The position numbers and the translations under genes are program-made. Under the pieces are notes generated by a model. It was not told where the DNA came from, did not search any database, and saw nothing but the letters and a program-made list of their open reading frames with translations. This document shows, piece after piece, positions 3,859 to 48,283 of a DNA stretch of 59,977 nt. The stretch is from a virus: the IMG/VR virus record IMGVR_UViG_3300042876_000659, positions 1-59,977 of that record; one strand, given 5' to 3'. Every line of letters begins with the position of its first letter. Positions within the stretch are counted from its first letter, which is position 1.

Positions 3859-4085
3859 TGGTCCTGCCGTCCTCCCACAAGATCCTGCCCTCGAAACCAG
3901 TCGTCCGCGTGGAGCCCATCCGACCCATGACGGCTGATGAGCTTGAGCGCTATCTCTCTGACTTTTCCGCCGAGGAACTGCGGCAGGTCAATGAGCTGTG
4001 GCAGACCCACGCCGCGCGCAAGGAGCTGATCCTCTTCGAGGCGAACGACCCACAGGGTAAGTATGACCAAACAATACGGCTTTGA
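3858..4085 (+). CDS. Small hypothetical protein, head operon
   Basis: About 75 residues if started at ATG 3858, which overlaps the stop of the previous gene (TGATG); an in-frame ATG at 3834 would add eight residues. The C-terminal half is a helical, acidic segment (TADELERYLSDFSAEELRQVNELW). The sequence overlaps the start of the head morphogenesis gene by 23 nt, which fits tight translational coupling. No domain recognised. Confidence 0.65.
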   Translation: MVLPSSHKILPSKPVVRVEPIRPMTADELERYLSDFSAEELRQVNELWQTHAARKELILFEANDPQGKYDQTIRL

Positions 4086-24947: not shown

Positions 24948-25058
24948 ATTGCTGCATAAAGCAGCCGACAGTCAGCGCTGAGCCAGATGACGGGCAAGGT
25001 CCTCTGGCTCTTCTATTTTAATACACACGAGTCTAAAAAGCAACACCTGTTGTCTAAC

Positions 25059-25072
25059 GTTTCCACGGAAAC
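25059..25072. repeat. Dispersed parS/NBS-like palindrome, copy 6
   Basis: GTTTCCACGGAAAC with perfect arms, in the non-coding space 29 nt before the FkbM start. Confidence 0.92.
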
Positions 25073-25100
25073 GGCTGGTAGAATTGGGAGAGATTGCCTC

Positions 25101-26042
25101 ATGCTTACTTCGTTCTTGGAACTCTACGCGTCGAGCACGGGGATTCCACACTTGCTCCTACGGGCGGCCTGGGAAGGAATCCGCCGCGCGGGCATGCTGG
25201 TGGGCGATCCTTCCTATGAGGCGGTGATCCACGGAAAACGAATTCGCCTGCCAATCTCCCATAAGTTGCCGCTCTATGTGGCCAATCATCCCTATTACGA
25301 TACACTGCCCATCCGGCTCTCGACCTATCTGCACCGGACCCGCGGGCCTTTGACCATGATCGATGTGGGTGCCAACGTCGGCGACACGATCGTGGCTTGC
25401 CATCAGGCGCCCGAAGATCGGTTCCTGGCCATCGAAGCTCATTCCTTCTTCGTGAAGGATCTCCGCCGGAACGGCGCGCAGATTCCCAACCTGGTCATCG
25501 TCGAGGCTCTCTGCTCCGCCGAGGATTCGGAATCGACCGCAGTCCGTCTTAATTCCGCCAATGGTACCGCGCAGGTTGCAGGCGCCAGCACAGGCCGACC
25601 GATCCCGCGGAAGAAACTGGATACCATCGTTTCAGAGCATTCGGAATTTTCCACCTGCAACTTCCTGAAGGTCGACACGGATGGCAGCGACTTCGAGGTG
25701 TTGCGCGGCAGCCAGGACCTGATCGCCCGGGCCCGGCCGGTGGTGTACTTCGAGTGTGATGTCTTCGATAACGAGGACTACCTCGACGATTTCTTTCAGA
25801 CCATGGAATTTTTCAAGAGCGTGGGATATATGTCTGTGGTCGCATACGACAACCTGGGCTATCTGTTCCAGGTGTTCCCAGTCGACCAACATGAACAATT
25901 CCGCCAGGCACTGGAGTATCAGTTGCTGAGCAAGTTTGGCTACTTCGATCTCCTGGTCCTGGATGAGTCGTGCCAGGATTTTGTTGATCTGGAACTGACT
26001 TATTTTTCCCGGATCATCGCCGATCGAGGGAAAAGTCCGTAA
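25101..26042 (+). CDS. FkbM-family methyltransferase
   Basis: A 313-aa SAM-dependent methyltransferase. Motif I is MIDVGANVGDTIVA, followed by FLAIEAHSFFVKDLRRNG (motif II), then LKVDTDGSDFEVLRGSQ, the FkbM-type post-motif with the catalytic-looking D-x-D-G. These enzymes O-methylate sugars and are frequent in surface-glycan loci. Start taken at ATG 25101 behind GGGAGAGA; the longer frame from 24987 includes palindrome copy 6 and is less likely. It probably methylates a sugar made with the neighbouring membrane transferase. Confidence 0.85.
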   Translation: MLTSFLELYASSTGIPHLLLRAAWEGIRRAGMLVGDPSYEAVIHGKRIRLPISHKLPLYVANHPYYDTLPIRLSTYLHRTRGPLTMIDVGANVGDTIVACHQAPEDRFLAIEAHSFFVKDLRRNGAQIPNLVIVEALCSAEDSESTAVRLNSANGTAQVAGASTGRPIPRKKLDTIVSEHSEFSTCNFLKVDTDGSDFEVLRGSQDLIARARPVVYFECDVFDNEDYLDDFFQTMEFFKSVGYMSVVAYDNLGYLFQVFPVDQHEQFRQALEYQLLSKFGYFDLLVLDESCQDFVDLELTYFSRIIADRGKSP

Positions 26043-26362: not shown

Positions 26363-27790
26363 TCAATCCTGCCACACCACGATCGCCTGGTCGCCCATCA
26401 CTACGATCTTCCTGATCAGCTTCTGGAGCTGCGCGTTGAGTTTGCCGGGATCGATCACTTCGAGCAACTCAGGCAGATCGTCGAGGTGTAACTCCTCCCG
26501 TTGTTCCTGACGCTCCAGCCAGTTCGCTTCTTCCTGCCTGGCGCGAGTCATTTTTTGCAAGACCTCTTCCATGCTGGTTTCGATCTTCGCGATCTCCCGG
26601 GCTGCCTCGTCGGCCTTGTAGATCCTGGACCGATAGCCATCCTGGATCAGTGTGCGCGCATCCTCCAGTTCCTTGCGTTGACGTTCGAACGGCGCCAGGT
26701 CCAGGGGCTCGTGCGGCGCGCTCTGGTGCTCCCGGAACTGGGTGACCACGGCATTCGCCAGGAACTGGAGGGCCGGCTCATACCGCATGGCCCAGTGCTT
26801 GCGGGTCGTGTCGCAGCCCAGGTATTCCCAGGGTGGCTTGCCGCTCTTGCGCAGCTTCTTCCCGCAGATCCCGCAGACGGGAATGCCGCTGAAGGGATAG
26901 CGCGCCTGGTAGAACCGCTTCCCCTCCAGACGACGCTTCGCCTCGGCCACCAGGGCGTAATAGGTCTCCTCGTCCCACAGCGGCTCATGCTTTCCCTGGC
27001 CCAGTTTCCACTCCGCGCGCGGTGCCGGCAGGCGGTGACGCTGATAACCAAATCGCACGATGCCGGCATTGTAGGGATTTAATAAAATCCGTTTCACATC
27101 AACACGATTCCATTTCTGCGTGCGGCGAGGCTTGATCCCGGAAGTGTCCGCGTAGAGAGCGATCTCTGTATATGTTTTTCCGGCGAGCATCATGTCCTTC
27201 ATCGCCCTAAGTAGGGCCGCCTTCTCAGGCACCAGCTGGGCCGGCTGGTTCTTCCCATTCAGGCGGTAGCCGAACGCCAGGCTTAAAGGGTGCAAGCCGC
27301 GCTCAACCCTCGCCGGGATGCCCAGATCCCAGCCCCGGCGGATCTTGTTGATCCGATAGGTCTGGAGGATCCCCTGGATGTGCATATTGATATTGCCGCT
27401 TTCATCCCCGTACGGGTTGTAGGTCTGCGGATCGTAGAGCGTGCCGGATTGGCGCGCGGAGTAGATCTGTTTCTTGAGCTTGCGAAAGCGGGTGTAAAGG
27501 AGCAGACCCAGATCTCCGAGCCGATCCCAGTTATCGACCATGAGCACATCATAACAATCCTTCTCTGCATCCTGGACCGCTGTCTGAAGCGCCGGGATGG
27601 CGGCCATGGCTTCCGCCAGGCTGTCGTAGCCGGACCGGCTGTACCCGTCGAAAGTATAACAGGCGGTCTCCGCGCCCTGGTATTGTTGGATCACGCGCCG
27701 GCAGGTGCGGATCTGGTCCGGGATGGATTGTCGCTCTTCAGTGGCTTGCGCGGCCGAACTGACGCCGGCCAGGATGGCAAAGCGGATCAT
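26363..27790 (-). CDS. Large serine recombinase (integrase-like) with substituted active-site arginines
   Basis: A 475-aa protein with serine-recombinase architecture: N-terminal catalytic domain with S11 in GVSSAAQATEERQSIPDQI, a recombinase domain about 150-260, a zinc ribbon (PVCGICGKKL, then a third C in YLGCDTTR) and a C-terminal coiled coil with E/R/K heptads. It would catalyse strand exchange through a 5'-phosphoserine link between attP and attB. Odd: the arginine that normally precedes V-S (R8 of resolvases) is G9, and the R in DRLGR is replaced (DRLGDL). Either this branch tolerates it or catalysis is altered. Overlaps the 58-aa gene by ATGA. Confidence 0.85.
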   Translation of the reverse strand: MIRFAILAGVSSAAQATEERQSIPDQIRTCRRVIQQYQGAETACYTFDGYSRSGYDSLAEAMAAIPALQTAVQDAEKDCYDVLMVDNWDRLGDLGLLLYTRFRKLKKQIYSARQSGTLYDPQTYNPYGDESGNINMHIQGILQTYRINKIRRGWDLGIPARVERGLHPLSLAFGYRLNGKNQPAQLVPEKAALLRAMKDMMLAGKTYTEIALYADTSGIKPRRTQKWNRVDVKRILLNPYNAGIVRFGYQRHRLPAPRAEWKLGQGKHEPLWDEETYYALVAEAKRRLEGKRFYQARYPFSGIPVCGICGKKLRKSGKPPWEYLGCDTTRKHWAMRYEPALQFLANAVVTQFREHQSAPHEPLDLAPFERQRKELEDARTLIQDGYRSRIYKADEAAREIAKIETSMEEVLQKMTRARQEEANWLERQEQREELHLDDLPELLEVIDPGKLNAQLQKLIRKIVVMGDQAIVVWQD

Positions 27791-28933: not shown

Positions 28934-29317
28934 TTAAGGCGTAGAGGTTTTGGGTTTTTTCTGTTTGGCTTTCCTTCGATCAGCTTCTTCCCCTTCAAGC
29001 ATTGAAACAATAAACCGTTCTGCAACAGCGCGAAGTCCAGGGGACATCTGACTCAGCTTGTGAGACATCTCATCTACCCAGGGATCATCCTTCTCGGGCG
29101 GCAAGATGCCGGCCGCGCGAAAGACCTGCTCTGGGGGCAATCTCAATGCTTGAGCAATGGCGGTCGCTGTTCGTTTTCCGACCTGGCGCTGCCCAGAGAT
29201 AATTTCACTGATTGCAGATCTACTGACTTTCGCCGCGCGCGCCAAGTCCGCCTGACTCCATTTCCTATTCTCCAGCATAAGCAACAGCCATTCACTAAAT
29301 GAGATCAATGTGTTCAC
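28934..29317 (-). CDS. XRE-family repressor
   Basis: A 127-aa protein with a classic XRE/Cro-type helix-turn-helix at residues 10-65 (WSQADLARAAKVSRSAISEIISGQRQVGKR as helix 2-turn-helix 3), followed by FRAAGILPPE and an acidic helical tail ending in lysines. It starts with GTG 29317, 8 nt after CATAAT, so its mRNA may be leaderless like lambda cI. It faces away from the rightward promoter across an operator-rich region. It is the best candidate for the phage immunity repressor. Confidence 0.85.
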   Translation of the reverse strand: MNTLISFSEWLLLMLENRKWSQADLARAAKVSRSAISEIISGQRQVGKRTATAIAQALRLPPEQVFRAAGILPPEKDDPWVDEMSHKLSQMSPGLRAVAERFIVSMLEGEEADRRKAKQKKPKTSTP

Positions 29318-29440
29318 TGTTTTGGATTATGCCTTTGACGTTGTTCCAATTGGTGAATAAGTTGCTCCAAAACACTTGACAACCTGATAAGATGATAGTA
29401 TTATTCGGGTGTTCCTGTTTTGGAACTAGTTGTTCCAAAG
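29318..29440. promoter_or_regulatory. Divergent promoter/operator region (immunity switch)
   Basis: Rightward: TTGACA 29376-29381, 17-nt spacer, TATTAT 29399-29404. Leftward: CATAAT (29326-29331 complement) 8 nt before the repressor GTG. Operator-like elements: perfect inverted repeat TTTGGAAC-N5-GTTCCAAA at 29419-29439, with related single boxes GTTCCAAT at 29343, GCTCCAAA at 29364 and GTTCC at 29411. A repressor bound here would cover both promoters. Confidence 0.85.
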
Positions 29441-29485
29441 TGTAACCAAACCAATTTCAATCAGTCATGTAGAAGAGGCACCTAA

Positions 29486-29713
29486 ATGGATCAAGAGAAG
29501 AAAGAGATCAAGGTTGTGAAGTCATATAGCCTGCCCCCCTCCCAGATTGCCTGGCTGCGGAAACAAGCCCTGGAAGAGTCGACACCAGAGCAGACTATGT
29601 CTGCCAGCGCTGTGCTCGAGCGCATCATTGACGAAGCCATGCACGAATCCGAGCAATCCCCCTCTGAAAAAAAAAGAACCGCGGCAAGCGCGCGGATAGT
29701 CATGGTGGCGTAG
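29486..29713 (+). CDS. Small early DNA-binding protein, RHH-like (Cro position)
   Basis: A 75-aa protein, the first rightward gene after the operators, behind AGAAGAGG. Pattern IKVVKSYSLPPSQIAWLRKQALEES then SASAVLERIIDEAMH looks like a CopG/RHH-type strand-helix-helix unit. Its place opposite the repressor is that of Cro or an anti-repressor. Charged C-terminus (EKKRTAASARI). Function is inferred from position. Confidence 0.7.
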   Translation: MDQEKKEIKVVKSYSLPPSQIAWLRKQALEESTPEQTMSASAVLERIIDEAMHESEQSPSEKKRTAASARIVMVA

Positions 29714-29720
29714 GCTCGAA

Positions 29721-29891
29721 ATGCTGAAGTACGTCACTCCCCGCTCATCCTCAATAGGCACACCCAACCCCCGCGCGATGCGTGAGCTGTTGGACTTCCT
29801 ATGGCAGGCCCGCCAGCTGCTGGCTGCGCGGAAAGCCCTGGCCGAGTCGAAGAGCCAGGACCAAGCCAAGTCGATTGTCGTCAAAAACTGA
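29721..29891 (+). CDS. Small hypothetical protein (56 aa)
   Basis: A short gene 7 nt after the previous stop. It encodes a helical peptide beginning MLKYVTPRSSSIGTPNPRAM and continuing as RELLDFLWQARQLLAARKAL with an acidic, Q/S/K-rich end. The composition and clean spacing to the next gene (11 nt) support translation; the ribosome site is weak. Confidence 0.5.
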   Translation: MLKYVTPRSSSIGTPNPRAMRELLDFLWQARQLLAARKALAESKSQDQAKSIVVKN

Positions 29892-29902
29892 TCGGAGTTC
29901 CC

Positions 29903-30220
29903 ATGCGTAGCAGCCACCTGCATCTCACCCCCACCCATTCATCCATCTATGAATTTATTGTTAAATTCAAAATGACCCATGACGGCATTGCGCCATCGGT
30001 CCTGGAGATTGGAAAAGCATGCGGGATCTCTTCCACAAGCATGGTGCGGTATCACTTGAACAGGCTTGTCCTTTTTGGAATGATCAAGGTCGACTATGCG
30101 GGCAAGAGCAGGATGATCTCCATCCCAGGGGCTCGCTGGATCCCGCCATCAAACGGTGAAGTCTCCCCAGTCGATCGGGCGGAGCGCGTGCATGTATCGG
30201 GTTCATCCACCAAAGCGTAA
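29903..30220 (+). CDS. LexA-type winged-helix protein (DNA-binding domain only)
   Basis: About 105 residues from ATG 29903 behind GGAG. Residues 8-75 match the LexA N-terminal domain: YEFIVKFKMTHDGIAPSVLEIGKACGISSTSMVRYHLNRLVLFGMIKV, with the helix-turn-helix in the middle and a short wing. LexA's protease domain is absent. It likely binds an operator-like site and could act as a second regulator or anti-SOS element. The next gene starts 16 nt later. Confidence 0.78.
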   Translation: MRSSHLHLTPTHSSIYEFIVKFKMTHDGIAPSVLEIGKACGISSTSMVRYHLNRLVLFGMIKVDYAGKSRMISIPGARWIPPSNGEVSPVDRAERVHVSGSSTKA

Positions 30221-30236
30221 TTCAAAGGAAATCTCA

Positions 30237-30593
30237 ATGCAACAAATAGACCCGAATCAGACGGTTTTTAGCTTGACCCTCGCCGGCGAGTTTATCTTTG
30301 GCGTATTGTTTGCCGTCCTTGTTCGTTGGGCGTCTAACCGGAAGGTGGTTGGTCAAACGGCTTTTGCAGTCATTCTTGGTGTAACGGCCACTCTGTTGAT
30401 AAGCATTCCTGTTTTTGGTTTCAACATTATTGCCCTGTTGTTCCCCTGCTTTATTGCGAGTGGCGGCCCAATGGTAGCAGAATATCTGCTAAGGGTCCAA
30501 AAGGAAATTGACAGCGATCAGAAAAAAGCCAAAGACCTAGCCAAGGACTTGCTCAATGACCGACAAACCAGCGATCGGGAAAAACCTATATAA
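30237..30593 (+). CDS. Small membrane protein
   Basis: About 118 residues from ATG 30237 behind AAAGGAAAT. Three hydrophobic segments (EFIFGVLFAVLVRWA, TAFAVILGVTATLLISIPVF, IIALLFPCFIASGG) followed by a charged helix (EKEIDSDQKKAKDLAKDLLND). Topology leaves the charged helix in the cytoplasm. The ending overlaps the next gene by 38 nt. Function unknown; phage membrane proteins here may affect host energetics or exclusion. Confidence 0.7.
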   Translation: MQQIDPNQTVFSLTLAGEFIFGVLFAVLVRWASNRKVVGQTAFAVILGVTATLLISIPVFGFNIIALLFPCFIASGGPMVAEYLLRVQKEIDSDQKKAKDLAKDLLNDRQTSDREKPI

Positions 30594-30804
30594 CGAGGCG
30601 CTGGTCCGGGGCCGACACTCAGCCAGTGCTGCAAGGGAAGCACTTAGGCGCTTGATCGACGAACAACCCGGGCCGCAAACGACGAGTCTTTTGATAGCCA
30701 AGGTAGCACTCTCCATCGCTCAACTCGAAGCAGTGCTCAATGAACTGGATGAAATCGGAAGAAACGCAAAGATGAACGGAAGTACGAGAACAAAGAGACA
30801 ATGA
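30556..30804 (+). CDS. Small hypothetical helical protein
   Basis: An 82-aa protein overlapping the previous gene by 38 nt and the next by ATGA (30801-30804). Residues 20-70 read as two amphipathic helices (ASAAREALRRLIDEQP and LIAKVALSIAQLEAVLNELDEIGRN). It has the look of a small early regulator or adaptor; no domain recognised. Confidence 0.6.
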   Translation: MTDKPAIGKNLYNEALVRGRHSASAAREALRRLIDEQPGPQTTSLLIAKVALSIAQLEAVLNELDEIGRNAKMNGSTRTKRQ

Positions 30805-31268
30805 AAGAGATACCTCTCACGCAAGGCGAAGTCGCAAGAGTCTCAGACCATCGGTTTGATTATCTCAAACAGTATAGATGGTTCCCGAAACGTGAAGGCA
30901 ATACGATTTATGCGCGCCGCCAGGAAGGCAATAAGACAATCTTTATGCACTGCGAGATCATGAACGCTTCAGACGACGTGGAAGTGGATCACTGGGACGG
31001 TGATGGACTGAATAATGTCGACGAAAACCTGCGGGTCTGCACTGGCTCGCAAAACCAAGCAAATCGAAAACTTAACTCAAACAGCACATCTGGCTTCAAA
31101 GGCGTATCACTGACCGGTAATAGCTATAAAAACCGATACAAAGCCGAGATTAGAGTTTCAGGAAAGAAAATTTACTTGGGCTCCTTTGAAACCAAAGAAG
31201 ACGCTGCCCGCGCATACGACACTGCAGCCAAGGAACTTTTCGGCGAATTCGCCAGAACGAATTTTTAA
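30801..31268 (+). CDS. HNH endonuclease with AP2 DNA-binding domain (homing-type)
   Basis: A 155-aa protein. N-terminal part has the HNH core: FMHCEIMN, VEVDHWDGDGLNN and NLRVCTGSQNQANR. The C-terminal 60 residues are an AP2 domain (SGFKGVSLTGNSYKNRYKAEIRVSGKKIYLGSFETKEDAARAYDTAAK). This pair is typical of free-standing phage homing endonucleases. ATGA overlap with the previous gene shows that it is in the operon. It copies itself by cutting intact alleles of its insertion site. Confidence 0.9.
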   Translation: MKEIPLTQGEVARVSDHRFDYLKQYRWFPKREGNTIYARRQEGNKTIFMHCEIMNASDDVEVDHWDGDGLNNVDENLRVCTGSQNQANRKLNSNSTSGFKGVSLTGNSYKNRYKAEIRVSGKKIYLGSFETKEDAARAYDTAAKELFGEFARTNF

Positions 31269-31278
31269 ATAAATATCA

Positions 31279-31339
31279 GTGACCTGGTTGTGACAGGTCA
31301 CAGACGGTGCCTAAGAAATTTTGCGACTCCTTGGGCACC
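31279..31339 (+). terminator. Two adjacent hairpins, attenuator-like
   Basis: GTGACCTG 31279-31286 pairs with CAGGTCAC 31294-31301; then 31306-31315 pairs with 31330-31339 (10 bp, one G-T). A moderate T-rich end (TCCATTTTATC) follows. Located between the homing gene and the next gene start at 31367, so it may partly terminate transcription. Confidence 0.6.
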
Positions 31340-31366
31340 TCCATTTTATCAGATTTGGAGGCTTAC

Positions 31367-31906
31367 ATGCAAAACAGTACTTATCAACAACTTGATCAAC
31401 GAACAGACCACATCCTGGCGACCATCGGCAGCCTGCCCGTTTCCAGCGAAACGTTTGTCGAGCTGGCCGAGATCCAGATCGCCCTGGAAGATGCACCGAT
31501 CAAACCCGTCGTGGTGGCCCGGCTGACAATCACCCGCGCGCTCGGCAACCTCACGATCGTCGAAGTCTGGGAAGATGCCAGCTTCAGCCGGTTCTACAAG
31601 ATCTTTACGCAGAACGGAAGGCGCCGCAGCACGAAACGCCTGGTGCGGGCCGCAAATCGCAATGAAGGTCTCAAGCCCTACACAGCGCACGCGGTGAAGC
31701 CGGGTCTCGAAGTCCTGGCTGCGCATTGGCTGAGCATGCCGCAGGTGGCCTCGGTCAAGGTCCGGATCATCCGCAAGCGAGCATACAAACGTCTGATTTC
31801 CGCATCTCCCGACCAGCTGGGGATGACGACCTCCACGGTCAACCTCCCTCTGCGAAGTTTCTCTCCGTTATCCAATCATTCGTTCAATGTTACGAGGCAC
31901 TCATGA
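31367..31906 (+). CDS. Hypothetical protein carrying a palindrome site
   Basis: About 179 residues from ATG 31367 behind TTGGAGGCTTAC; the upstream in-frame ATG at 31307 lies in the hairpin region and is less likely. A helical start is followed by VARLTITRALGNLTIVEVWEDASFSRFYKIF, beta-like strands with many basic residues. The palindrome at 31439 is read as VSSET near residue 25. No recognised domain. Confidence 0.65.
   Translation: MQNSTYQQLDQRTDHILATIGSLPVSSETFVELAEIQIALEDAPIKPVVVARLTITRALGNLTIVEVWEDASFSRFYKIFTQNGRRRSTKRLVRAANRNEGLKPYTAHAVKPGLEVLAAHWLSMPQVASVKVRIIRKRAYKRLISASPDQLGMTTSTVNLPLRSFSPLSNHSFNVTRHS
31439..31452. repeat. Dispersed parS/NBS-like palindrome, copy 9
   Basis: GTTTCCAGCGAAAC, one mismatch, read as VSSET. 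Confidence 0.75.
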
Positions 31907-31974
31907 ACAGCACATCCAACACCACTAGCAAGCGTTGTCCCAGCGGCAGCCTGGGGGATGGAAGGCACTCATGA
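31903..31974 (+). CDS. Very small ORF (23 aa)
   Basis: Encodes MNSTSNTTSKRCPSGSLGDG followed by RHS. Its start overlaps the previous stop and its stop overlaps the next start, both as CACTCATGA. The beginnings of this ORF and the next are alike (ATGAACAGC and ATGAACGGC), so the two may have arisen by a small duplication. Coding status is doubtful. Confidence 0.35.
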   Translation: MNSTSNTTSKRCPSGSLGDGRHS

Positions 31975-32192
31975 ACGGCCAACCCAACCAAATGGATACC
32001 TCCACGAAGATCAAGCATATCTTCGCTTGCCGCGGTAAAACGTTCCATCTTACGCCAGGCTTCAAGCTCTTGCAGGCTGGCGACATTACAAAGTGCCCGC
32101 AATGTGGCGCGGAAGTATACGACGCCACAGATACACCAGTTGGCCAGGCCTACTTCGCATTCAGCCGGCCGGACCTGGGGACACAGCAATGA
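31971..32192 (+). CDS. Small protein with CPQC half zinc knuckle
   Basis: A 73-aa protein. Contains FACRGKTFHLTPGFKLL and KCPQCGAEVYD, one clear C-x2-C pair and a single upstream C, so a zinc ribbon is possible if H/C partners are shared. ATGA overlap with the GGDEF-like gene (32189). It is probably a small cofactor or regulator of that protein; no further evidence. Confidence 0.55.
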   Translation: MNGQPNQMDTSTKIKHIFACRGKTFHLTPGFKLLQAGDITKCPQCGAEVYDATDTPVGQAYFAFSRPDLGTQQ

Positions 32193-32686
32193 CCAGCAAA
32201 GATCTCCTCATCGCACAACTGGAAGAGAAGCTGCACCGGGTTTCCTGGAACGATCGCTTCGGCTGCTACAACCGCCAGGGCTTTGAGTACGTCATCTGGC
32301 CAGAGATCGCTCCCATCACCCGCTTCCTGATCTACTTCGATTTGGACTATCTCCATGAAATAAACAACCAATATGACTCTTATGCTCCGGTCGACGCCAT
32401 GATCAAGGCCGCGCTCTCGATCGTGCGTTCCACTGATTACAAGTCCGGCCAGCTGAATTCGGGCGATGAATTTATTTTGGCGATTACCGAGACGCCAGGA
32501 CGTCCCACACCGACCCGAGAGTCTGCGGAGGGCCTCAAAGCCCGGCTGGTCGAATCACTCGCCAGCGTTGGCATGTCCGCCACCTTCGCGATCGTGGAAG
32601 TGAAAGGCTGGGACCTGGCGGAGAACCTGGAACGAGCGGTTGCAGAAGTCAAGGCCGCCAAGAAGGCGCGCGGCATTTCCCGCTAA
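32189..32686 (+). CDS. Stand-alone GGDEF-domain protein (diguanylate-cyclase-like)
   Basis: A 165-aa single-domain protein with the full GGDEF pattern: FDLDYLHEINN (D51-x-D53 metal and IN/ND motif), SGDEF at residues 91-95 in the signature loop, ATFAIVEV for the substrate strand, and a C-terminal NLERAVAEVKAAKKARG helix like the usual LERADxALYxAKxxGRN. Only the first glycine of GGDEF is changed to serine. No sensor, membrane or receiver domain. It could make cyclic di-GMP or a related nucleotide, or be an inactive binder. Gene order: small zinc-like protein before, unknown 349-aa protein after. Confidence 0.82.
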   Translation: MTSKDLLIAQLEEKLHRVSWNDRFGCYNRQGFEYVIWPEIAPITRFLIYFDLDYLHEINNQYDSYAPVDAMIKAALSIVRSTDYKSGQLNSGDEFILAITETPGRPTPTRESAEGLKARLVESLASVGMSATFAIVEVKGWDLAENLERAVAEVKAAKKARGISR

Positions 32687-32739
32687 TCATTTTTTTCAAA
32701 TCAATTGATTCATTCTTTGTAAACAAATAGGAGAACACC

Positions 32740-33789
32740 ATGAACGCAAGAACTTTGATCGATCAATATAACCTGAAAGTCCAGGAAGAACAGCAGCTTG
32801 AACACCAGAAGAAAAACGAGGCCTTCCAGCGCGGGATGGAACAATTCAAACTGAACTGCGAGGGCTGGCTGGGTGAGCTGATGACTGAATTCGAGATCGG
32901 CGATCCCACCTTTCGCGAGTCGACCACCTGGAATTCGAATGACGTGTATTTCATTCTCCCCGTCAGTTTCATGGGGATAAATGGGACCATCGAGCAACGG
33001 CTCAATACGCGGTCCGAACAATGGGACGTGGCGAAACTGGATTTTGGCACGTTGCATTTCTCGAGAGATTCATATTTCAGCGCCTGCGTTCATCTCTATC
33101 TTGGACCTGAAAACAAAGCAGTCTCGCCCAATCCACGCGACCTAGGCCATCTGCTGGCCAAGCTCGAGGAATACCTGCCCATCATGCAAGAGAACCAGCG
33201 CAAATACAACGAGATCCGCAAGCAGGATCTGCTGAACTTCCAGCACTACACTCCCGAGGGTACGCGTCGCAAACTGCAGGAGGCGATCGCGGAATTTCCT
33301 GAGATGGCCGATCAGTTTAAAGCGGCAGCCGAAGCATGGTTGCGCGAGGTGGAAGAAACGGAGCGCAAGCGCCAGGAAGAGAACCACCATTATGAAGAAA
33401 TCCGCCGTGAGTGTGAGAACCTGCGCGAGCTGGCCAGCCGAGCCTGGGCCATGCCTTTCACACTCTACCGGGTGACCTATGGCGCCTACGTGGACGATGG
33501 CAGCGAAGATGGGGATGTCCTGACCCGCCTGTTCTATTCCGTTGACGAACAACCGCAGGAAGATGGCTACTGGTATGCGCTCGAGAATGGGAAACCCACC
33601 CGCCAGATCAAACCGAATCACGTGATGTCGATCGAGCGGATTGAAGTTGCATCCGAAGCCGAAGCGCCCTACGAAGGCAAACGCCACATTGAGTTGAAGA
33701 GCAAGCGGATTGAAGGCGCCAGCACTTATGTTAGTTTGCCGCCCTATGAAGTCTTTGTCTTTGACATGGACGAATTGATCCAGGAGTAA
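32740..33789 (+). CDS. Hypothetical coiled-coil protein
   Basis: A 349-aa protein behind AGGAGAACACC. N-terminal helices (EEQQLEHQKKNEAFQRGMEQ), a globular aromatic region (residues 60-140, FEIGDPTFRESTTWNSNDVYF), a long basic/acidic coiled coil (about 150-235), then a beta-rich C-terminal domain (FTLYRVTYGAYVDDGSEDGDVL). It lies 3 nt before the first ParB gene and may be its partner, but I recognise no family. Confidence 0.6.
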   Translation: MNARTLIDQYNLKVQEEQQLEHQKKNEAFQRGMEQFKLNCEGWLGELMTEFEIGDPTFRESTTWNSNDVYFILPVSFMGINGTIEQRLNTRSEQWDVAKLDFGTLHFSRDSYFSACVHLYLGPENKAVSPNPRDLGHLLAKLEEYLPIMQENQRKYNEIRKQDLLNFQHYTPEGTRRKLQEAIAEFPEMADQFKAAAEAWLREVEETERKRQEENHHYEEIRRECENLRELASRAWAMPFTLYRVTYGAYVDDGSEDGDVLTRLFYSVDEQPQEDGYWYALENGKPTRQIKPNHVMSIERIEVASEAEAPYEGKRHIELKSKRIEGASTYVSLPPYEVFVFDMDELIQE

Positions 33790-33792
33790 CCC

Positions 33793-35481
33793 ATGGAAAC
33801 CCCAACCCTTATCGATGTCGAATTGATCAAACCCAACCCGTATCAGCCACGCCAGGCTGAAGATCCCGCGGCCGTCGCGGAGATCGCCGATAGCATCGCC
33901 CGCAATGGCTTGATGCAGATCCCAACCGCCCGCCAGGTCAATGGCCATTATGAATTGGCGTTCGGGCACACCCGCCTGGCTGCTTTCAAGCTGCTCCAGG
34001 AAGAGACCATGCCGCTGATCGTTCGCGAGCTGGACGATCTGCAGATGTTCGAGCTGGGCGTGAGTGAAAACATCAAACGCCGCGATCTTAACCCGATCGA
34101 GCAAGCCGAATCGATGAGGCGCTACATGCAGGAGTTCAAGAAGAACAGTGTGGAGACCGGAGAATTCTTTAATGTGTCTCCTGAAAAGGTTCGCAATGCG
34201 GTCCGCCTGTTGAACCTCCCCACAGTCCTGCAGAGTGGTGTAGCTGATGGATCGATCACACAGAACAACGCGCGCAGGTTACTCACCATCCAGCGCGTAG
34301 CACCCGATGAAGTAGTGCACGTTGCCAACAAACTGAAAGGTGACGCAGATCCAGACCGGATCATTTCCGAGTCGTTGAAGGATACCGGCCGATCGGTGGA
34401 AATGTGGCAACGGTGGCAGAGTGGCGAACCCAGGGCGGGAAATCGGCTCTGGCGCTTGAATATATCGGCTGATAAGTTCCCTTCCAGGCAGCTCCCGGAA
34501 CTGCGCGCGGCCGACGTGGCTAAGTCATTGGACATGGAGCTCACTGCTGAGTTGCGCTCCAGGATCGAAGATTACATCGAGACGGCAACCAAGCACCCTG
34601 AGTTTGTTTCGGAATTTGCAGAAGCCAATCCCAAGTATGCCAACTTAATGGAACGCATTGCGCACCTGCTCAATCCCCCTGCCTGCAGTGCCTGCCCACT
34701 TTACGCCAAGGTCGATGGCTCACACTTCTGCACATTGAAGCTCTGCCACAGCCGCAAGTCACGGGCCTGGGAAGAGAACGTCATCCAGACGGCCAGCAAG
34801 AAGCTGGGCGTCCTGGTCTATGAGGCCAAGAGAGACGGCAAGGATTTTGGATACCTCAGCAGCTATGACGAGCCAGACAAGAAGCTGGTCCAGGAGCACA
34901 ACGCCGATCTGCGGTTGAAGAAAGGCACGAACTGGAGCCAGCACTTTGATGGACTGCCGGAAGGCTATTCGATCGTGGTCATAGGAGATGCGCTCAAGAA
35001 GCTTCGCAAACGCCACCAGGCTAACAACCACAGCCACAACTCCAGTAATGACGCCGCATACCTGGCCGAGCAGAAACGACTCCGCGAGATCCGCCAGGCC
35101 AACGAGCTGGCAATGTACGAGTTCCTGTGGAATGTAGCCACGCCGGCCTTTGCAGTCCTCCTGGATGGGTTGATTAATGTGGACTTCATTGACACCCTTG
35201 CAGGACGGATGGCCCGAGGCGTGCCCGCGGAAGAGCCAGACAAGAAAGCGACCAAGGCGGTCAAACTGGACTTTCACCGCCGCTCGATCCTGTTCTCCCT
35301 GATGGATGAGGATTTGAATATGTGGGAGATCAAGCAGAAGAAACACCCCGTCACCGCCATGGCCAAGCAGCTGCAGGGCAAGGCGACCACCTGGGGCGTG
35401 AAGTTGCCGAAAAATTGGATGGATCAGGCGGCCGAAGCCGACAAGGGCATCACCGTTTCCACGGAAACAGAGACGGCATGA
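33793..35481 (+). CDS. ParB-family protein 1 with zinc-cluster C-terminal half
   Basis: A 562-aa protein. Residues 1-105 carry the ParB/Srx CTPase fold: PYQPR, GHTRLAA at 58-64 (the GERR box) and ENIKRRDLNPIEQA at 92-105. Residues 120-170 are the DNA-binding helix-turn-helix (TGEFFNVSPEKVRNAVRLLNL, then GSITQNNARRLLTIQ). The rest is unlike chromosomal ParB: a helical part, a C-x2-C...C...C cluster (CSACPLYAKVDGSHFC, CH) near 295-320, and a long C-terminal domain. Its last codons VSTETETA are written by palindrome copy 10. Prime candidate to bind the dispersed palindromes. Confidence 0.88.
   Translation: METPTLIDVELIKPNPYQPRQAEDPAAVAEIADSIARNGLMQIPTARQVNGHYELAFGHTRLAAFKLLQEETMPLIVRELDDLQMFELGVSENIKRRDLNPIEQAESMRRYMQEFKKNSVETGEFFNVSPEKVRNAVRLLNLPTVLQSGVADGSITQNNARRLLTIQRVAPDEVVHVANKLKGDADPDRIISESLKDTGRSVEMWQRWQSGEPRAGNRLWRLNISADKFPSRQLPELRAADVAKSLDMELTAELRSRIEDYIETATKHPEFVSEFAEANPKYANLMERIAHLLNPPACSACPLYAKVDGSHFCTLKLCHSRKSRAWEENVIQTASKKLGVLVYEAKRDGKDFGYLSSYDEPDKKLVQEHNADLRLKKGTNWSQHFDGLPEGYSIVVIGDALKKLRKRHQANNHSHNSSNDAAYLAEQKRLREIRQANELAMYEFLWNVATPAFAVLLDGLINVDFIDTLAGRMARGVPAEEPDKKATKAVKLDFHRRSILFSLMDEDLNMWEIKQKKHPVTAMAKQLQGKATTWGVKLPKNWMDQAAEADKGITVSTETETA
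35455..35468. repeat. Dispersed parS/NBS-like palindrome, copy 10
   Basis: GTTTCCACGGAAAC with perfect arms, in the last codons of the ParB1 gene, as parS sites often lie in or beside parB genes. Confidence 0.92.
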
Positions 35482-35735
35482 GCCATGGACGACACGCTGC
35501 GTTGCCTGACGGCCTATTGTTCGCCGGCCCTGGTCCTGGTGCTGTTGTCCCTGGTCATACTCTTTGTTCAAAGAAGCAGAACGTCCGCCTGATCCTGGAC
35601 AAGTACATCTGTCGCGCGAAGCAGGGCGTGTTCGTGCAGGTGTCGAAGAATGAACGCCCGCTCGAGATCTCGGAAGAGCTGTTGAGCGAGTGCCTGACTG
35701 GAGAACCTCATGAGCAAATCATTACCCAACACTAA
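35478..35735 (+). CDS. Small protein between the two ParB genes
   Basis: An 85-aa protein whose ATG overlaps the ParB1 stop (ATGA) and whose end overlaps the start of ParB2 by 26 nt. The second half looks like real protein (QNVRLILDKYICRAKQGVFVQVSKNERPLEISEELLSECL). An alternative frame at 35485-35592 encodes a 35-residue peptide with one membrane helix; I prefer the longer gene. Function unknown; may couple the two ParB proteins. Confidence 0.6.
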   Translation: MSHGRHAALPDGLLFAGPGPGAVVPGHTLCSKKQNVRLILDKYICRAKQGVFVQVSKNERPLEISEELLSECLTGEPHEQIITQH

Positions 35736-36600
35736 AGTGAAGCCCTATCAACGGATCCGGATCACGCGCGTGGTTCGTAACCCTGAGCAGCCACGCAAGG
35801 TCTTCGACGAGACCGAACTGCAGGAGCTGGCTGCCTCCATCCGCGCCCACGGGGTGATCCAGCCGATCATCGTGGAAGCCTGCGGCGATGATTACATTCT
35901 TCACGATGGCGAGCGCCGCATGCGAGGGGCACAGATGGCCGGCCTGAAGGTAATCCCAGCCATCGTTCACCCTCCTTTGAATGGAACTGGCCCGCGTGAA
36001 CGGCTCGAGCGCGCCCTGGTGGCCAATGTGCAGCGAGTCGAAATGCACCCGATCGAGGAAGGGCTGGCGTATCAGCGACTGATCACGGAATTCGGATACG
36101 GTGTGCCCGAGGTGATGAGAGTTACTGGAAAGCATACCAGCCGCATCTATGCCTGCCTTACGCTCCTGACCCTGGAGCCCGAGATCCAGCAGCTGATGCT
36201 CGAGCGGAAACTGCCGTGCGCAGATACCCAGGTGGTCACGGCCATGCTCAGCATTCCGGCCGGTCCAGAGCGGGTCCAGCTGCTCACCGCGCTGGCCGAA
36301 AAGAACGCCACGGCCCGGATGATCAAGCAGGCCTGCACGATCTTCCTGGAAGGAAAAGAGTCCCTCCAGAAACGCAATACCAAGGGCAGCCCGGCCGTGA
36401 AGATGATGAGCCGGGATCTGCCGGAGTGGGATGCGCTCTACCAGCTGGGCAAGGTCCCGCCCTGGCCAGTGGTCAATGATGCCGTGATGGCCACCTGCGA
36501 TGCCTGCCCCGTTCGCAAGGTAGCCAGTGATGCGACCTGCCGGACCTGCGGCCTGGTCGCTGCCCTGAAACGCATGATGGAGGCCGCTCATGTCTCTTGA
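35710..36600 (+). CDS. ParB-family protein 2
   Basis: A 296-aa protein with a more canonical ParB core: NPEQPRKVFDE at 24-34, ELAASIRAHGVIQPI, HDGERRMRG (GERR at 67-70), ANVQRVEMHPIEEGLAYQRL near 110-125. The DNA-binding helical region follows (YGVPEVMRVTGKHTSRIYACLTLL; LERKLPCADTQVVTAML). The C-terminus has CDACPVRKVASDATCRTC, a metal-type cluster like that in ParB1. It could share or compete for the same sites. It overlaps the next gene by 11 nt. Confidence 0.88.
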   Translation: MSKSLPNTKVKPYQRIRITRVVRNPEQPRKVFDETELQELAASIRAHGVIQPIIVEACGDDYILHDGERRMRGAQMAGLKVIPAIVHPPLNGTGPRERLERALVANVQRVEMHPIEEGLAYQRLITEFGYGVPEVMRVTGKHTSRIYACLTLLTLEPEIQQLMLERKLPCADTQVVTAMLSIPAGPERVQLLTALAEKNATARMIKQACTIFLEGKESLQKRNTKGSPAVKMMSRDLPEWDALYQLGKVPPWPVVNDAVMATCDACPVRKVASDATCRTCGLVAALKRMMEAAHVS

Positions 36601-42399: not shown

Positions 42400-42692
42400 T
42401 CATCCATGACAACGTCAAGTTCGAAGACATCACGGTCCAGCTGCCCGATCTCAACGTCCGTTTCCGTGGAAACGAGATCCACTTGAGCCTGACCCAGCTG
42501 CGGCTGCTCATGATCTTCCTGTCCGACCCGTATGGCCGCTTTACCAGTGAGGAGCTCATTCGCCGAATGGGGTTCTTCAGCAAGCCGCACCTGAATATCT
42601 ACATCACACATCTCAGGAAACACTTTGATCAACGATATATCTTTGCTGTGCGAGGCTATGGCTATGCCTTCGCACTGGAAAGGGGAGAATGA
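42396..42692 (+). CDS. Orphan OmpR/PhoB-type winged-helix DNA-binding protein
   Basis: A 98-aa protein that is only the effector domain of the OmpR/PhoB family: LPDLNVRFRGNEIHLSLTQLRLLMIFLSDPYGRFTSEELIRRMGFF, recognition helix near HLNIYITHLRKHFDQRYIFAVRGYGY. No receiver domain, no phospho-acceptor. Palindrome copy 12 is inside its first strand (VRFRGNE). It likely binds direct repeats and controls the helicase gene it overlaps (ATGA) or a phage promoter. Confidence 0.82.
   Translation: MIIHDNVKFEDITVQLPDLNVRFRGNEIHLSLTQLRLLMIFLSDPYGRFTSEELIRRMGFFSKPHLNIYITHLRKHFDQRYIFAVRGYGYAFALERGE
42460..42473. repeat. Dispersed parS/NBS-like palindrome, copy 12
   Basis: GTTTCCGTGGAAAC, perfect arms, read as RFRGN. 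Confidence 0.9.
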
Positions 42693-45598
42693 TGGACTGG
42701 AAAATGGACCTAAAGGAAGCCCAGCGCGCGATGAGCACTATCGGCGCCACGATCGCAGAGCTGGAGAAATTCCAGAACGAAGCGACAGCCGAGATTGCAA
42801 AGTATCTGCGCATGGACTCTGGGATTGAATTGGATCTCGATGCCATCCGCGCGACCCTGACCCGGCCGTATACACTCCTGCTGATCAATGAGCATGAAGC
42901 CTGGCTGATCCACTGGCGCGGGGTCAAGATGCCGATCTTTGGCTGGGTCGTTGCCCAGGAGCCGGCCTTCATCAAAGCGAAGGTCACGCGCTCGATAGAT
43001 CTGCTCACACCCTTGCCTGGCTGGATGAAGCAGGAGCTGGGCTGGAAGCCGCCCGAGCACAAAGCCGTGATCGATGGCACGCGCACCAGCTTGCAGCTCA
43101 CGGAAGGAGACAGTGCCAGCTTCAAACGCAAGTATGGCAAGTTCCTGGGCGGCTCAAACCAGGATGGAACCATGAAGATCAAAGGCGGCGATGCGTGGAT
43201 CCGATTGGTCGCTGCGCTGGTCCGGGATGGGATCTTACCGTACGCGCCGAAGCCGGTGGATCCGGAGAACTGGAGCAATAAAACTTTCTTCGATGTCCCC
43301 GAACTGCTGCAGAAGATCATCGAGAAAAAAGAGAAGGAAGCGCACGCCAATTACATTACCCGCGCGGTCAATGAATTTCAGGAGAAGGGCGCAGTCCTGA
43401 TCAACTATCCACCAGGCTCTGGCAAGACCCTGACCACCTGTCTTATCCTGAACTACTTCAAGGGCCGCGTGCTGCTCCTCGCCGATACCACCATGCTGAT
43501 CGATCAATGGCGGGATCGGTTGAAGCTGTTCTGTCCGAATGCAAACGTCACGGTCTCCACCTACCAGGGCGCGGGCAAATTCTTGAATGAAGAATGGGAT
43601 CTGATCACGTTTGACGAGTGTTTCCCGGCCGGCACATTGATCGATGGCCGTCCCATCGAATCGCTCAGCGCTGGCGATACAATTACAGCATTTGATGAAC
43701 AATTGTTCTATTTTCGGAAGGCACGTATCGTGCGAGTGTTCAAGCGTGTGGCTCCTCGATCCGTTTTACGGATTGGGGTAGGTGATCGTCATATCGTCTG
43801 CACTCTTAATCACCCGATCTTCACGAGGCGCGGATGGATCAAGGCGCAGGACCTGACCACCGAAGATTCGGTCCTTATCTATCAGGAGCATTCCTATGGG
43901 CAAAGCAAAGTGCAAACCGACACAACTGATCTGCAGCTGGTGCCAAGAATCGTTCATTACAACGGACAAGAACAAAGTCGATTACTGGAAAGAAGCGGGA
44001 AAGGCTTATTGCTCGCCGGAGCATTCAAACACTGCGCGCAGCCAAGCTCTCTCGATCGCAACATCCAACATGAGCACCGAACAACGCAAGTCGATTTCAG
44101 TGCACATGAAGCGGAACAATCCTATGTTCAAGAAGAGCATCCGCGACAAGATGTCCGCCACGTTGAAAGCTATGGGCTGGGGTCCGCAGATCCAGGGCGG
44201 CAATGGCCGGGGTTTGACCGAGCCGCAGAGGCGACTGGCAGAGGCACTGGGATGGCCAACGGAATATCCGATCCGAGCCAAGGATGCGGGGCCTCAATAT
44301 CCAATTTACTACAAAGTGGATATTGCGAATCCAGAACTGATGATCGCCATCGAAGTGGATGGTCCTTCCCATGTAGCTCGGGAACGACAGCAGCAGGACC
44401 GCAAGAAGGAGCAATTTCTCAGTGGGCGAGGGTGGACTGTATTGAGGTTCAAGAATCGGGAAGTAATGAACGATCTGGATCGCTGTGTCCAGATGGTTAT
44501 GTCTACAATCTCGAAGTAGAGCACTTCCACACCTATGTGGCCAACGGAGTCGTTGTGCATAACTGTCAGCGACTGCCGGCCAACACTTTCTCAAAGCTCG
44601 CTTTCGCAAAAACAAAATACCGGCTTTCTCTCTCTGGAACTGCCTGGCGCGAAGACGACCGCCAGCACCTGATCGTCGCTTTAAGTGGATTCCCTGTGGC
44701 CATCCGCTGGTCCGAGATGATCGCGAGTGGTGTCCTTCGAAGACCACGCATCGTGGTGGCCACAGTGGCCAATGAGGCTGCCAAGACCGCCTATGTCAAG
44801 AGCCTGGTAGCCAAACGGAAAGGCCGCGCGCTGATCTTTTGCGACTGGCTGAAGCAGGGCCAGGAGCTGGCGGACGCGCTCGACGTGCCGTTCATCCATG
44901 GCGATTCGGGAAAGAACAAACTGCAGCTGATCGAGGAGAGTGATGTGTGCGTGGTCTCCAGGATCGGCGATCGTGGGATCTCGCTCCCAGATCTGCGGTT
45001 GGTGATCGAGGTGGCCGGGGCCGGGTCTGCGCGCGAACAGTTCGCTCAGCGGGTAGGTCGGCTGCTCCACGGCGAGTTCGAAGGGACGTTCATCACGGTC
45101 TTCACGCCCGAGGAAGCCGCCAAATATCGCGGGCGTGTGTTCGGGGTCGAGGCAGAGCTGGCCGGCAGTGTGGATATCGAGTTCATCACCGTGGGCAACG
45201 TTTCCACGGAAACGGTCAAGGTGCCCAGCCGAAAAGCGCGTGTAGTCATTCAGCCCCGCGCGGCAGCCATCCCCAGCTCTGAGCCAACTGATGAGATCTC
45301 CCAAGTCCTGGCGCTGCCGGCAGTGGCTGCCAAGATCAGCCAGGCTGAAAAGCAGGTGGGCGCGCGCACGGCACCCTATATCCGGCGGGTGCTCCGCTAC
45401 TGTTGGACTGCCTCGCTCAGCGCGCGGGAGATCGCCGAAGGCCTGGGCATCGTCGATGAGGCGACCAGGTCCCGCATAAGCTCGGCGTGCAAGGCAGCCG
45501 AGAAGATTGGCCTGATGGTAGCGGACACGGAAGGCCGCTACCAGGTCAACCAGGCTGAGTTGAGCCGGTTGAAAGTCTTGAGTAATTTACGGAAGTAA
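42689..45598 (+). CDS. SF2 helicase interrupted in motif II by an intein
   Basis: A 969-aa precursor; after splicing about 654 aa. N-terminal unknown domain (1-220), then motif I PGSGKT at 242-247, motif Ia region LLADTTMLIDQWRDRL, and DLITFDE at 304-310. There the intein (311-625) follows; the C-extein resumes with CQRLPANTF, so splicing builds motif II as DECQ. Motif III is LSLSGTAW; motif VI is REQFAQRVGRLLHG. SF2 helicases of this type work in phage replication or recombination. Unspliced protein cannot hydrolyse ATP normally. A palindrome copy (45200, VSTET) separates helicase core from the C-terminal domain. Confidence 0.88.
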   Translation: MMDWKMDLKEAQRAMSTIGATIAELEKFQNEATAEIAKYLRMDSGIELDLDAIRATLTRPYTLLLINEHEAWLIHWRGVKMPIFGWVVAQEPAFIKAKVTRSIDLLTPLPGWMKQELGWKPPEHKAVIDGTRTSLQLTEGDSASFKRKYGKFLGGSNQDGTMKIKGGDAWIRLVAALVRDGILPYAPKPVDPENWSNKTFFDVPELLQKIIEKKEKEAHANYITRAVNEFQEKGAVLINYPPGSGKTLTTCLILNYFKGRVLLLADTTMLIDQWRDRLKLFCPNANVTVSTYQGAGKFLNEEWDLITFDECFPAGTLIDGRPIESLSAGDTITAFDEQLFYFRKARIVRVFKRVAPRSVLRIGVGDRHIVCTLNHPIFTRRGWIKAQDLTTEDSVLIYQEHSYGQSKVQTDTTDLQLVPRIVHYNGQEQSRLLERSGKGLLLAGAFKHCAQPSSLDRNIQHEHRTTQVDFSAHEAEQSYVQEEHPRQDVRHVESYGLGSADPGRQWPGFDRAAEATGRGTGMANGISDPSQGCGASISNLLQSGYCESRTDDRHRSGWSFPCSSGTTAAGPQEGAISQWARVDCIEVQESGSNERSGSLCPDGYVYNLEVEHFHTYVANGVVVHNCQRLPANTFSKLAFAKTKYRLSLSGTAWREDDRQHLIVALSGFPVAIRWSEMIASGVLRRPRIVVATVANEAAKTAYVKSLVAKRKGRALIFCDWLKQGQELADALDVPFIHGDSGKNKLQLIEESDVCVVSRIGDRGISLPDLRLVIEVAGAGSAREQFAQRVGRLLHGEFEGTFITVFTPEEAAKYRGRVFGVEAELAGSVDIEFITVGNVSTETVKVPSRKARVVIQPRAAAIPSSEPTDEISQVLALPAVAAKISQAEKQVGARTAPYIRRVLRYCWTASLSAREIAEGLGIVDEATRSRISSACKAAEKIGLMVADTEGRYQVNQAELSRLKVLSNLRK
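43619..44563 (+). other. Intein coding segment (315 aa)
   Basis: Begins with Cys 311: CFPAGTLIDG (block A), GDRHIVCTLNHPIFTRRGW (block B, T-x-x-H), and closes with YNLEVEHFHTYVANGVVVHN (blocks F and G, ending H-N) before Cys+1. The 200 codons between are not a normal intein endonuclease in this frame: they are rich in S, G, Q, R and H without motifs, because the DNA there codes the nuclease in another frame. Confidence 0.93.
43896..44519 (+). CDS. Out-of-frame homing endonuclease-like gene inside the intein
   Basis: A 207-aa protein in the +1 frame relative to the intein, starting at ATG 43896 behind CAGGAGCATTCCT, a good ribosome site. N-terminal zinc-type part (LICSWCQES, then YCSPEHSNTARSQAL), basic middle with KRNNPMFKKS, and a Vsr/PD-(D/E)XK-like nuclease core: YYKVDIANPELMIAIEVDGPSHV, DRKKEQFLSGRGWTVLRFKNREV. 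The core is like the EDxHD/Vsr-type homing nucleases seen with split inteins and introns. It stops exactly where intein block F begins. It should cut an intein-free helicase gene at motif II. Confidence 0.87.
   Translation: MGKAKCKPTQLICSWCQESFITTDKNKVDYWKEAGKAYCSPEHSNTARSQALSIATSNMSTEQRKSISVHMKRNNPMFKKSIRDKMSATLKAMGWGPQIQGGNGRGLTEPQRRLAEALGWPTEYPIRAKDAGPQYPIYYKVDIANPELMIAIEVDGPSHVARERQQQDRKKEQFLSGRGWTVLRFKNREVMNDLDRCVQMVMSTISK
45200..45213. repeat. Dispersed parS/NBS-like palindrome, copy 13
   Basis: GTTTCCACGGAAAC, perfect arms, read as VSTET between helicase core and C-terminal domain. Confidence 0.92.
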
Positions 45599-47578: not shown

Positions 47579-48283
47579 ATGAAAGAAACAGAACTAGCCG
47601 AACCAGTCATCAGTTGGCTTCAGGCCCAAAATTGGAATGTGTTTCAAGAAGTTCAATTCTCCAGAATGGGCGGAGTTGCCGATATCTGCGCGGAGAGGCA
47701 CGGAATTTTGTGGATCATAGAAGCAAAGACCGCTATGACCATTGAAGTCCTGAACCAGGCGTCTGCATGGCCCGTTCACTTCCGCTCTATCGCAGTTCCA
47801 AGAGCTAAGTATGGATTTAAAAGAGATTATGCGGTAGCCCGTGATTATTATAGAGTTGGCGTGATCGAGGTTTCAGAATACGACATCAATGAGAAATTGA
47901 AACCCCCTCTATATTTACGTCATCACAGAACAGCGAAGCGGTTATTGTCTGAGCTTACTGAACTGCATAGAACCTTTGCTAAAGCAGGTTCAAAAGGCGG
48001 AAGCCATCTTACACCCTACAAAATGACAATGATGCAGATACGCAGCACAGTCGAAAGAAATCCAGGGTGCACTATCGAAGACCTTTTTGCAGAGCACGGC
48101 GCGATGCACTATGCCAACAAATCATCCTTCAAAGGAAATGTCTTGAAATGCTTAGAAGACTTTGAGAGTCAATGGTGCAGGATAGATAAAACGTCGAAGC
48201 CTTACAAGCTCTATTTGGCAGATAATGCACCACCTAGCCAAAGTTTTGATCTTGGACACTTTATACACCGAGGTGAATCATGA
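47579..48283 (+). CDS. PD-(D/E)XK nuclease-like protein
   Basis: A 234-aa protein. N-terminal 90 residues fit a VRR-NUC/PD-(D/E)XK fold: E7 in ETELAEPVISWLQ, then GGVADICAERHGILWIIEAKT, where D and E-x-K give the metal site. C-terminal helices contain SKGGSHLTPYKMTMMQIRSTVERNPG and a winged-helix-like part. No ribosome site is strong; ATGA overlap with the tyrosine recombinase suggests co-expression. Likely recombination or Holliday-type nuclease; exact substrate unknown. Confidence 0.72.
   Translation: MKETELAEPVISWLQAQNWNVFQEVQFSRMGGVADICAERHGILWIIEAKTAMTIEVLNQASAWPVHFRSIAVPRAKYGFKRDYAVARDYYRVGVIEVSEYDINEKLKPPLYLRHHRTAKRLLSELTELHRTFAKAGSKGGSHLTPYKMTMMQIRSTVERNPGCTIEDLFAEHGAMHYANKSSFKGNVLKCLEDFESQWCRIDKTSKPYKLYLADNAPPSQSFDLGHFIHRGES

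Follow-up and report, generated by a model that had tools for sequence, protein, structure and literature searches.

The window (the whole stretch of viral DNA analysed here, 59,977 nucleotides of IMG/VR record IMGVR_UViG_3300042876_000659) encodes, at positions 32,189 to 32,686 on the + strand, a stand-alone GGDEF-fold protein of the SGDEF type, designated P0001. On sequence evidence it belongs to a clade that has so far been found only on mobile elements. The best reading of this protein, to which we assign a probability of about one half, is that it serves the phage early on as a diguanylate cyclase making the bacterial messenger cyclic di-GMP (c-di-GMP), with an HD-GYP phosphodiesterase from the same genome counteracting it late.

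The P0001 gene has an ATG start and encodes 165 amino acids followed by a stop codon. The stop of a small, zinc-ribbon-like open reading frame upstream (31,971 to 32,192, + strand; weak Pfam zinc-ribbon matches, E 0.02-0.1) runs into this start as ATGA. A longer frame would begin with a GTG at 32,093; the ATG at 32,189 was preferred because of the overlap with the upstream stop and because relatives start at approximately the same place. The product is one GGDEF-fold domain preceded by an N-terminal helix (residues 3-19), and a sensor domain is absent. Searched alone, P0001 scored 11.9 bits with the Pfam GGDEF profile (PF00990; E 0.2, below the cut-off of 23.8), and its best PDB sequence match was 3ign (E 0.035). 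A tblastn search of 50,697 phage records yielded no match, a single GGDEF protein was matched on an Ilyobacter plasmid (E 2e-4), and in 396 genomes from the class of an Anaerolineae genome (G004) the matches were to ordinary GGDEF proteins, most of them multi-domain, with E values reaching 1e-7. Peptide patterns derived from P0001 only, run through viral and genome contigs, recovered no relatives, and neither did scans with P0001 aligned to canonical GGDEFs. The Pfam value taken alone would be compatible with a chance resemblance or with an open reading frame that is no gene, an explanation that is now vanishingly improbable, as it is already refuted by a conserved family, by the fold and by a codon-position G+C pattern resembling that of the neighbouring genes. 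With homologues 27-44% identical in other viral contigs, the open reading frame is a real gene by sequence comparison, and the proposal of the first-pass annotation that it consists of a single sensorless GGDEF domain is borne out by gene, fold and family alike.

The relatives emerged from a scan of viral contigs with a DNA pattern for FD-x-D...SGDEF-like sequences, which returned 28 stretches. Most of these contigs matched falsely, in integrases or other unrelated genes, and five distinct relatives were present among the stretches (L128, L108/L118, L109, L105 and L113/L129). Using phmmer, P0001 matched L128, L108/L118, L109 and L105 with E values from 9e-43 to 1e-13, L113 was recognised as a relative by profile, and an alignment-based scan added three further relatives (L134, L137 and L139). 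Besides the window, the resulting SGDEF family comprises eight elements in viral contigs and one Leptolyngbya plasmid, with members that are all stand-alone and about 165-208 amino acids long, L139 being cut by the contig end. A scan of the 396 genomes of the G004 class, run with a positive control, did not find the family. In a tree that included 27 other rows, the SGDEF clade was monophyletic with support of 100/98, on a stem of 1.43 whose length calls for a long-branch warning. All six members scanned with the Pfam GGDEF profile matched at E<=10 (best E 3e-10), L113 passed TIGR00254 (48.4 against a cut-off of 37.4), and the PHROGs matched by the clade were exclusively of unknown function. 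PilZ was sought in the nine family records, and none scored above the cut-off. Other GGDEF-like sequences were also encountered in viral contigs. In L126 (an open reading frame of 2254 amino acids) and L131, a giant phage protein includes a GGDEF-like stretch that ends in HTSGDEF, as a GGDEF module built into a polyvalent protein, and L104 encodes, at 3,845 to 4,399, a small GGDEF-like protein (WGGDEL) that lies outside the SGDEF clade and near an FtsK/TraD-like gene.

Sequence profiles and structure modelling firmly support a GGDEF fold for P0001. Profile-profile comparison of the SGDEF family with canonical GGDEFs, with no sequence shared between the two, gave a probability of 98.8 and E 6e-17, and nearly all matches of the family profile to PDB sequences were GGDEF proteins (4zve, DosC, E 1.9e-10; 3ign, E 1e-9). 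An AF2 model built on the family alignment without templates reached a pLDDT of 87.8 and a pTM of 0.81, and its best 50 Foldseek matches in the PDB were all GGDEF proteins, headed by SadC (E 7e-9). Run against a viral library, Foldseek returned viral GGDEFs, among them the diguanylate cyclase of SP-15 and a protein of Bordetella phage CN1. A single-sequence AF2 model (pLDDT 59) and the fold search made with it were discarded as meaningless. The first-pass annotation had suggested comparing the fold with cGAS/CD-NTase and mCpol-like polymerases. Kinship with cGAS/CD-NTase is not supported, as the 50 best PDB fold matches were all GGDEF proteins and no PADLOC cyclase matched; kinship with mCpol fares no better, the mCpol profile (PF18182) giving no match at E<=10 in the nine records.

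The residues retained in this fold are part of the case for the cyclase reading. In alignment A6, 16 columns are invariant among the eight full-length members, including D51, D53, N59, R80, S91, G92, D93, E94, F95, K158 and R161. Their roles in P0001 (metal, base and phosphate binding) were assigned after PleD and WspR. The metal ligands of the D-x-D and [DE]E motifs are supplied by D51 and D53 (D51-L-D53, 32,339 to 32,347, + strand; invariant in 9/9 members and demanded by the scan patterns) and by D93 and E94 within S91-G-D-E-F95 (32,459 to 32,473, + strand; S-G-D in 9/9). N59 (32,363 to 32,365, + strand), corresponding to the Asn that binds guanine in diguanylate cyclases, is likewise invariant in all nine members and was not demanded by the patterns; D69 provides the accompanying Asp, and K158 and R161 the C-terminal phosphate-binding Lys/Arg, with a spacing off by one. 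Because D-x-D was required by the scan patterns in all members and GDEF in most, the conservation p for the six catalytic sites is inflated, and conservation of D-x-D and SGDEF is not to be taken at face value. Unbiased evidence comes from N59, K158 and R161, and from L134, L137 and L139, which were found without the SGDEF pattern and have S-G-D, plus E-F where not truncated. R80 was not demanded by the patterns either.

The first-pass description of an intact SGDEF loop and D-x-D motif was right as to the presence of both motifs, and the word intact overstated their condition. Ser91, invariant in the family, replaces the first Gly of GG[DE]EF, Q88 the R of RxGGDEF and H56 the K of DxDxFK, and the GH..GD loop is remodelled. 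Across the family, the RxGGDEF Arg is gone from the main clade, the DxDxFK Lys position varies as H/G/K and the GH..GD Asp as D/N/S. Relative to canonical GGDEFs, the helix that follows the guanine-binding loop is shortened in the clade, the hairpin preceding the SATFA strand (SVSIG in canonical proteins) is lost, and SGDEF comes after about two additional residues.

Because this active site is non-canonical, P0001 could instead have lost catalysis and function early as a regulator through binding of GTP or of the host's c-di-GMP, with the choice between lysis and lysogeny as one conceivable target. We consider this alternative possible and clearly behind the cyclase reading. Degenerate GGDEFs often serve as receptors (PMC3974145), the SGDEF gene adjoins a repressor or an integrase, and besides the loss of K and R and the substitution of the first Gly, R80 is invariant and D/E83 is kept, so that R80-S-T-D83 could be an inhibition-type RxxD site. 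This motif, however, lies about two residues further from SGDEF than canonical I-sites do, and the metal ligands and S-G-D-E-F are kept across a clade only 27-44% identical to P0001, whereas receptors usually let them decay. A related question is which product a functional enzyme would make. At the specificity site, where an Asp confers GTP specificity, L108, L137 and L139 have Asn and L109 has Ser; the change from Asp to Ser is the signature of Hypr GGDEFs (PMC6456294). Cyclic nucleotides that act as decoys are known from bacterial defence (Panoptes, PMC12657218). It is nevertheless unlikely that P0001 is a cyclase whose product is mixed or different, such as cGAMP in the manner of Hypr enzymes or c-di-AMP, serving for example as a decoy or to interfere with the host's nucleotide-based defence, as P0001 itself has Asp at this site and matched neither mCpol nor any PADLOC cyclase.

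The activity of P0001 as a diguanylate cyclase would be favoured by the metal-, base- and phosphate-binding residues that it keeps and, by analogy, by active precedents. The motif (G/S/A)G(D/E)EF has been proposed to be functional, and both ECA3270 of Pectobacterium (SGDEF) and VCA0965 (AGDEF) are active (PMC3974145). Against activity stand the lost R and K, the finding that Ser at the first-Gly position of VCA0965 abolished its activity (PMC3974145), and the lack of a dimerisation or sensor module, GGDEF domains on their own often showing poor activity. With about 165 residues, the proteins of this family lend themselves to asking what the minimum is for a working GGDEF.

The position of the gene suggests when such an enzyme might be made. 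The SGDEF gene sits in a rightward early region beside a cI-like HTH_3 repressor (28,934 to 29,317, - strand; Pfam HTH_3 E 1e-11). The intergenic gap between them holds a promoter-like TTGACA-17-TATTAT (29,376 to 29,404, + strand; 11/12 match), the only one within 29,250 to 32,800, a count not above chance, surrounded by operator-like repeats (GTTGTTCCAA three times plus the dyad TTTGGAACTAGTTGTTCCAAA; 29,340 to 29,438, + strand). The rightward genes after this gap encode a LexA-type regulator, an HNH/AP2 protein, the zinc-ribbon open reading frame, the SGDEF protein, two ParB-like proteins and a replication-initiation-like protein. Directly downstream of P0001 lies a gene for a 349-residue protein with no assigned function (32,740 to 33,789, + strand), followed by the two adjacent, different ParB-like genes (33,793 to 36,600, + strand), whose relatives in L002-L004 occur without any GGDEF. 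A large serine recombinase (26,363 to 27,790, - strand; Pfam Recombinase E 5e-16) forms part of the lysogeny module. The layout of tail genes, serine recombinase, repressor and SGDEF gene is common to the window, L137, L138 and L139, and the tail genes of these three contigs are shared with the window. A tyrosine integrase lies beside the SGDEF gene in L133, L134, L135 and L138; it is directly upstream and divergent in L133-L136, and in L138 the SGDEF stop is overlapped by the integrase start. L105 and L113 are less similar elements. This recurring layout in related contigs indicates that the SGDEF gene is a regular constituent of one group of temperate phages.

Several other features of these elements were recorded. 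The window carries two integrase types, the serine recombinase and a tyrosine integrase at 48,280 to 49,158. It also encodes a superfamily-2-like helicase interrupted by an intein (42,689 to 45,598; Pfam Intein_splicing E 2e-9, residues about 328-625). Glycan-type cargo lies at both sides (56,018 to 59,741 and 24,987 to 26,042), including CDP-glycerol transferase-like, FkbM-like and fucosyltransferase family 11 proteins and a methyltransferase, possibly for host surface change. In L134 (8,474 to 11,505) and L108 (7,960 to 10,979), a conserved set of genes downstream of the SGDEF gene encodes membrane proteins and a large ATPase-like protein, along with a zinc-finger-like protein in L134.

The first-pass annotation had also paired P0001 with an HD-GYP protein in the same phage, whose presence was confirmed. 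The gene at 52,707 to 53,684 (+ strand) encodes a receiver plus HD-GYP protein, a putative c-di-GMP phosphodiesterase (Pfam HD_5 E 4e-34), in which the HDxGK and HHExxDGxGYP motifs appear as HDIGK and HHEKWNGNGYP (D to N). Its stop is overlapped by a GH25 endolysin gene (53,681 to 54,772, + strand; Pfam Glyco_hydro_25 E 3e-21). The best cellular matches of the HD-GYP protein come mostly from Anaerolineae and other Chloroflexota, and on this basis the phage probably infects Anaerolineae bacteria. HD-GYP relatives in SGDEF-bearing elements are 48% identical over the full length in L141/L143 and 51% over the HD-GYP part in L142, whose protein has a PAS-like front end, and a separate scan with the HD-GYP protein found as its sole viral relative one of the same SGDEF-bearing contigs. 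In the window, L143 and L142 the gene adjoins lysis-type genes; the small membrane genes beside it in the relatives may have a lysis role. HD-GYP was detected in 3/9 SGDEF family elements, far above background since only 27/50,697 phage records match (E<=1e-10; Fisher p 2e-8), a figure that compares different hosts and includes related elements. It was found in 0/24 other viral contigs, for which the p of 0.015 is not significant once length is considered, and was not seen in 6/9 family elements, several of which are fragments.

The same pairing raises the prospect that P0001 acts as a protein partner of phage or host HD-GYP proteins, with catalysis dispensable. RpfG binds GGDEF proteins via GYP and D-x-D, in complexes that act independently of diguanylate cyclase activity (PMC3749722), and the phage protein shares the receiver-HD-GYP architecture, with D-x-D and GYP both present. 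Such an RpfG-style role would demand no conservation of the SGDEF residues, and HD-GYP was not seen in six of the nine family elements; we consider this role improbable.

Under the preferred cyclase reading, the SGDEF gene of this temperate phage is transcribed rightward out of the early region that the repressor flanks, and the protein is therefore expected upon infection or induction. Two copies of P0001 would meet head to head, each bound to one GTP by the metal ligands of D-x-D and GDEF, by N59 and D69 at the guanine and by K158 and R161 at the phosphates. This dimer would turn the two GTP into c-di-GMP, pushing the host towards a high-c-di-GMP state. In phages carrying one, a receiver- or PAS-linked HD-GYP phosphodiesterase from the lysis region would lower the signal late. 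Since some SGDEF phages carry the matching HD-GYP enzyme type, these phages may raise and lower the signal themselves. More tentatively, with odds well short of even, the lineage may possess its own two-stroke cyclic-dinucleotide circuit, in which a sensorless cyclase would be made early under repressor control and an HD-GYP phosphodiesterase gated by a signal would act late. If so, it would be the phage that sets the timing of c-di-GMP, or of a related nucleotide, in its host, either in the course of infection or at the decision between lysis and lysogeny.

Most of what is known of GGDEF genes in phages comes from annotation, and the phage-borne minimal GGDEF is itself a known kind, as the SP-15 and CN1 proteins were already deposited. 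The SGDEF clade and the GGDEF/HD-GYP pairing look new; a search of the open-licence literature found no description of this clade or of such pairs in phages. That a clade so nearly invisible to profiles is conserved and kept in the early or integration region of related phages, together with a phosphodiesterase type much commoner there than among phages in general, suggests that second-messenger control is part of the phage programme, in contrast to a passing host gene. The family also offers a test of the true roles of the first Gly and the RxGGDEF Arg, and it varies naturally between D, N and S at the specificity site.

In comparison with known systems, P0001 shares with GGDEF diguanylate cyclases (PF00990; SadC, WspR, DosC, SiaD) the fold, D-x-D, the GDEF acids, the guanine Asn/Asp and the C-terminal Lys/Arg. 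It differs from them in the Ser for the first Gly, the lost RxGGDEF R and DxDxFK K, the shortened helix and beta-hairpin, the missing sensor and its placement in a separate clade on a long branch. The Bacillus phage SP-15 cyclase (AMM44948.1, 183 amino acids) and the Bordetella phage CN1 protein (152 amino acids), the latter alike by fold match only, are likewise phage-encoded and consist of a GGDEF domain only. The SP-15 protein, however, has a canonical R-x-GGEEF and an N-terminal hydrophobic stretch, is located among glycan genes and groups in the tree with other GGDEFs. The plasmid member of the family, WP_017286805.1 on Leptolyngbya boryana pLBA, is annotated as a diguanylate cyclase and is a stand-alone protein of 166 amino acids (YSGDEV) scoring 79 bits with the SGDEF family profile versus 25 with a canonical profile; it differs in its cyanobacterial plasmid location, Phe to Val, and Ser at the specificity Asp. 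ECA3270 and VCA0965 resemble P0001 in the replaced first Gly, yet are active (PMC3974145); VCA0965 is an inner-membrane protein (PMC3974145), and the two were not placed in the SGDEF clade here. The Hypr GGDEF GacA has Ser for the specificity Asp, as does L109, whereas P0001 has Asp, and GacA has a receiver domain. RpfG has the same architecture as the window's HD-GYP protein, which is phage-borne and next to an endolysin. Finally, mCpol of Panoptes is also a small stand-alone palm-fold nucleotide cyclase, but it differs from P0001 in giving no profile match, in its GGDD-type motif and in belonging to bacterial defence.
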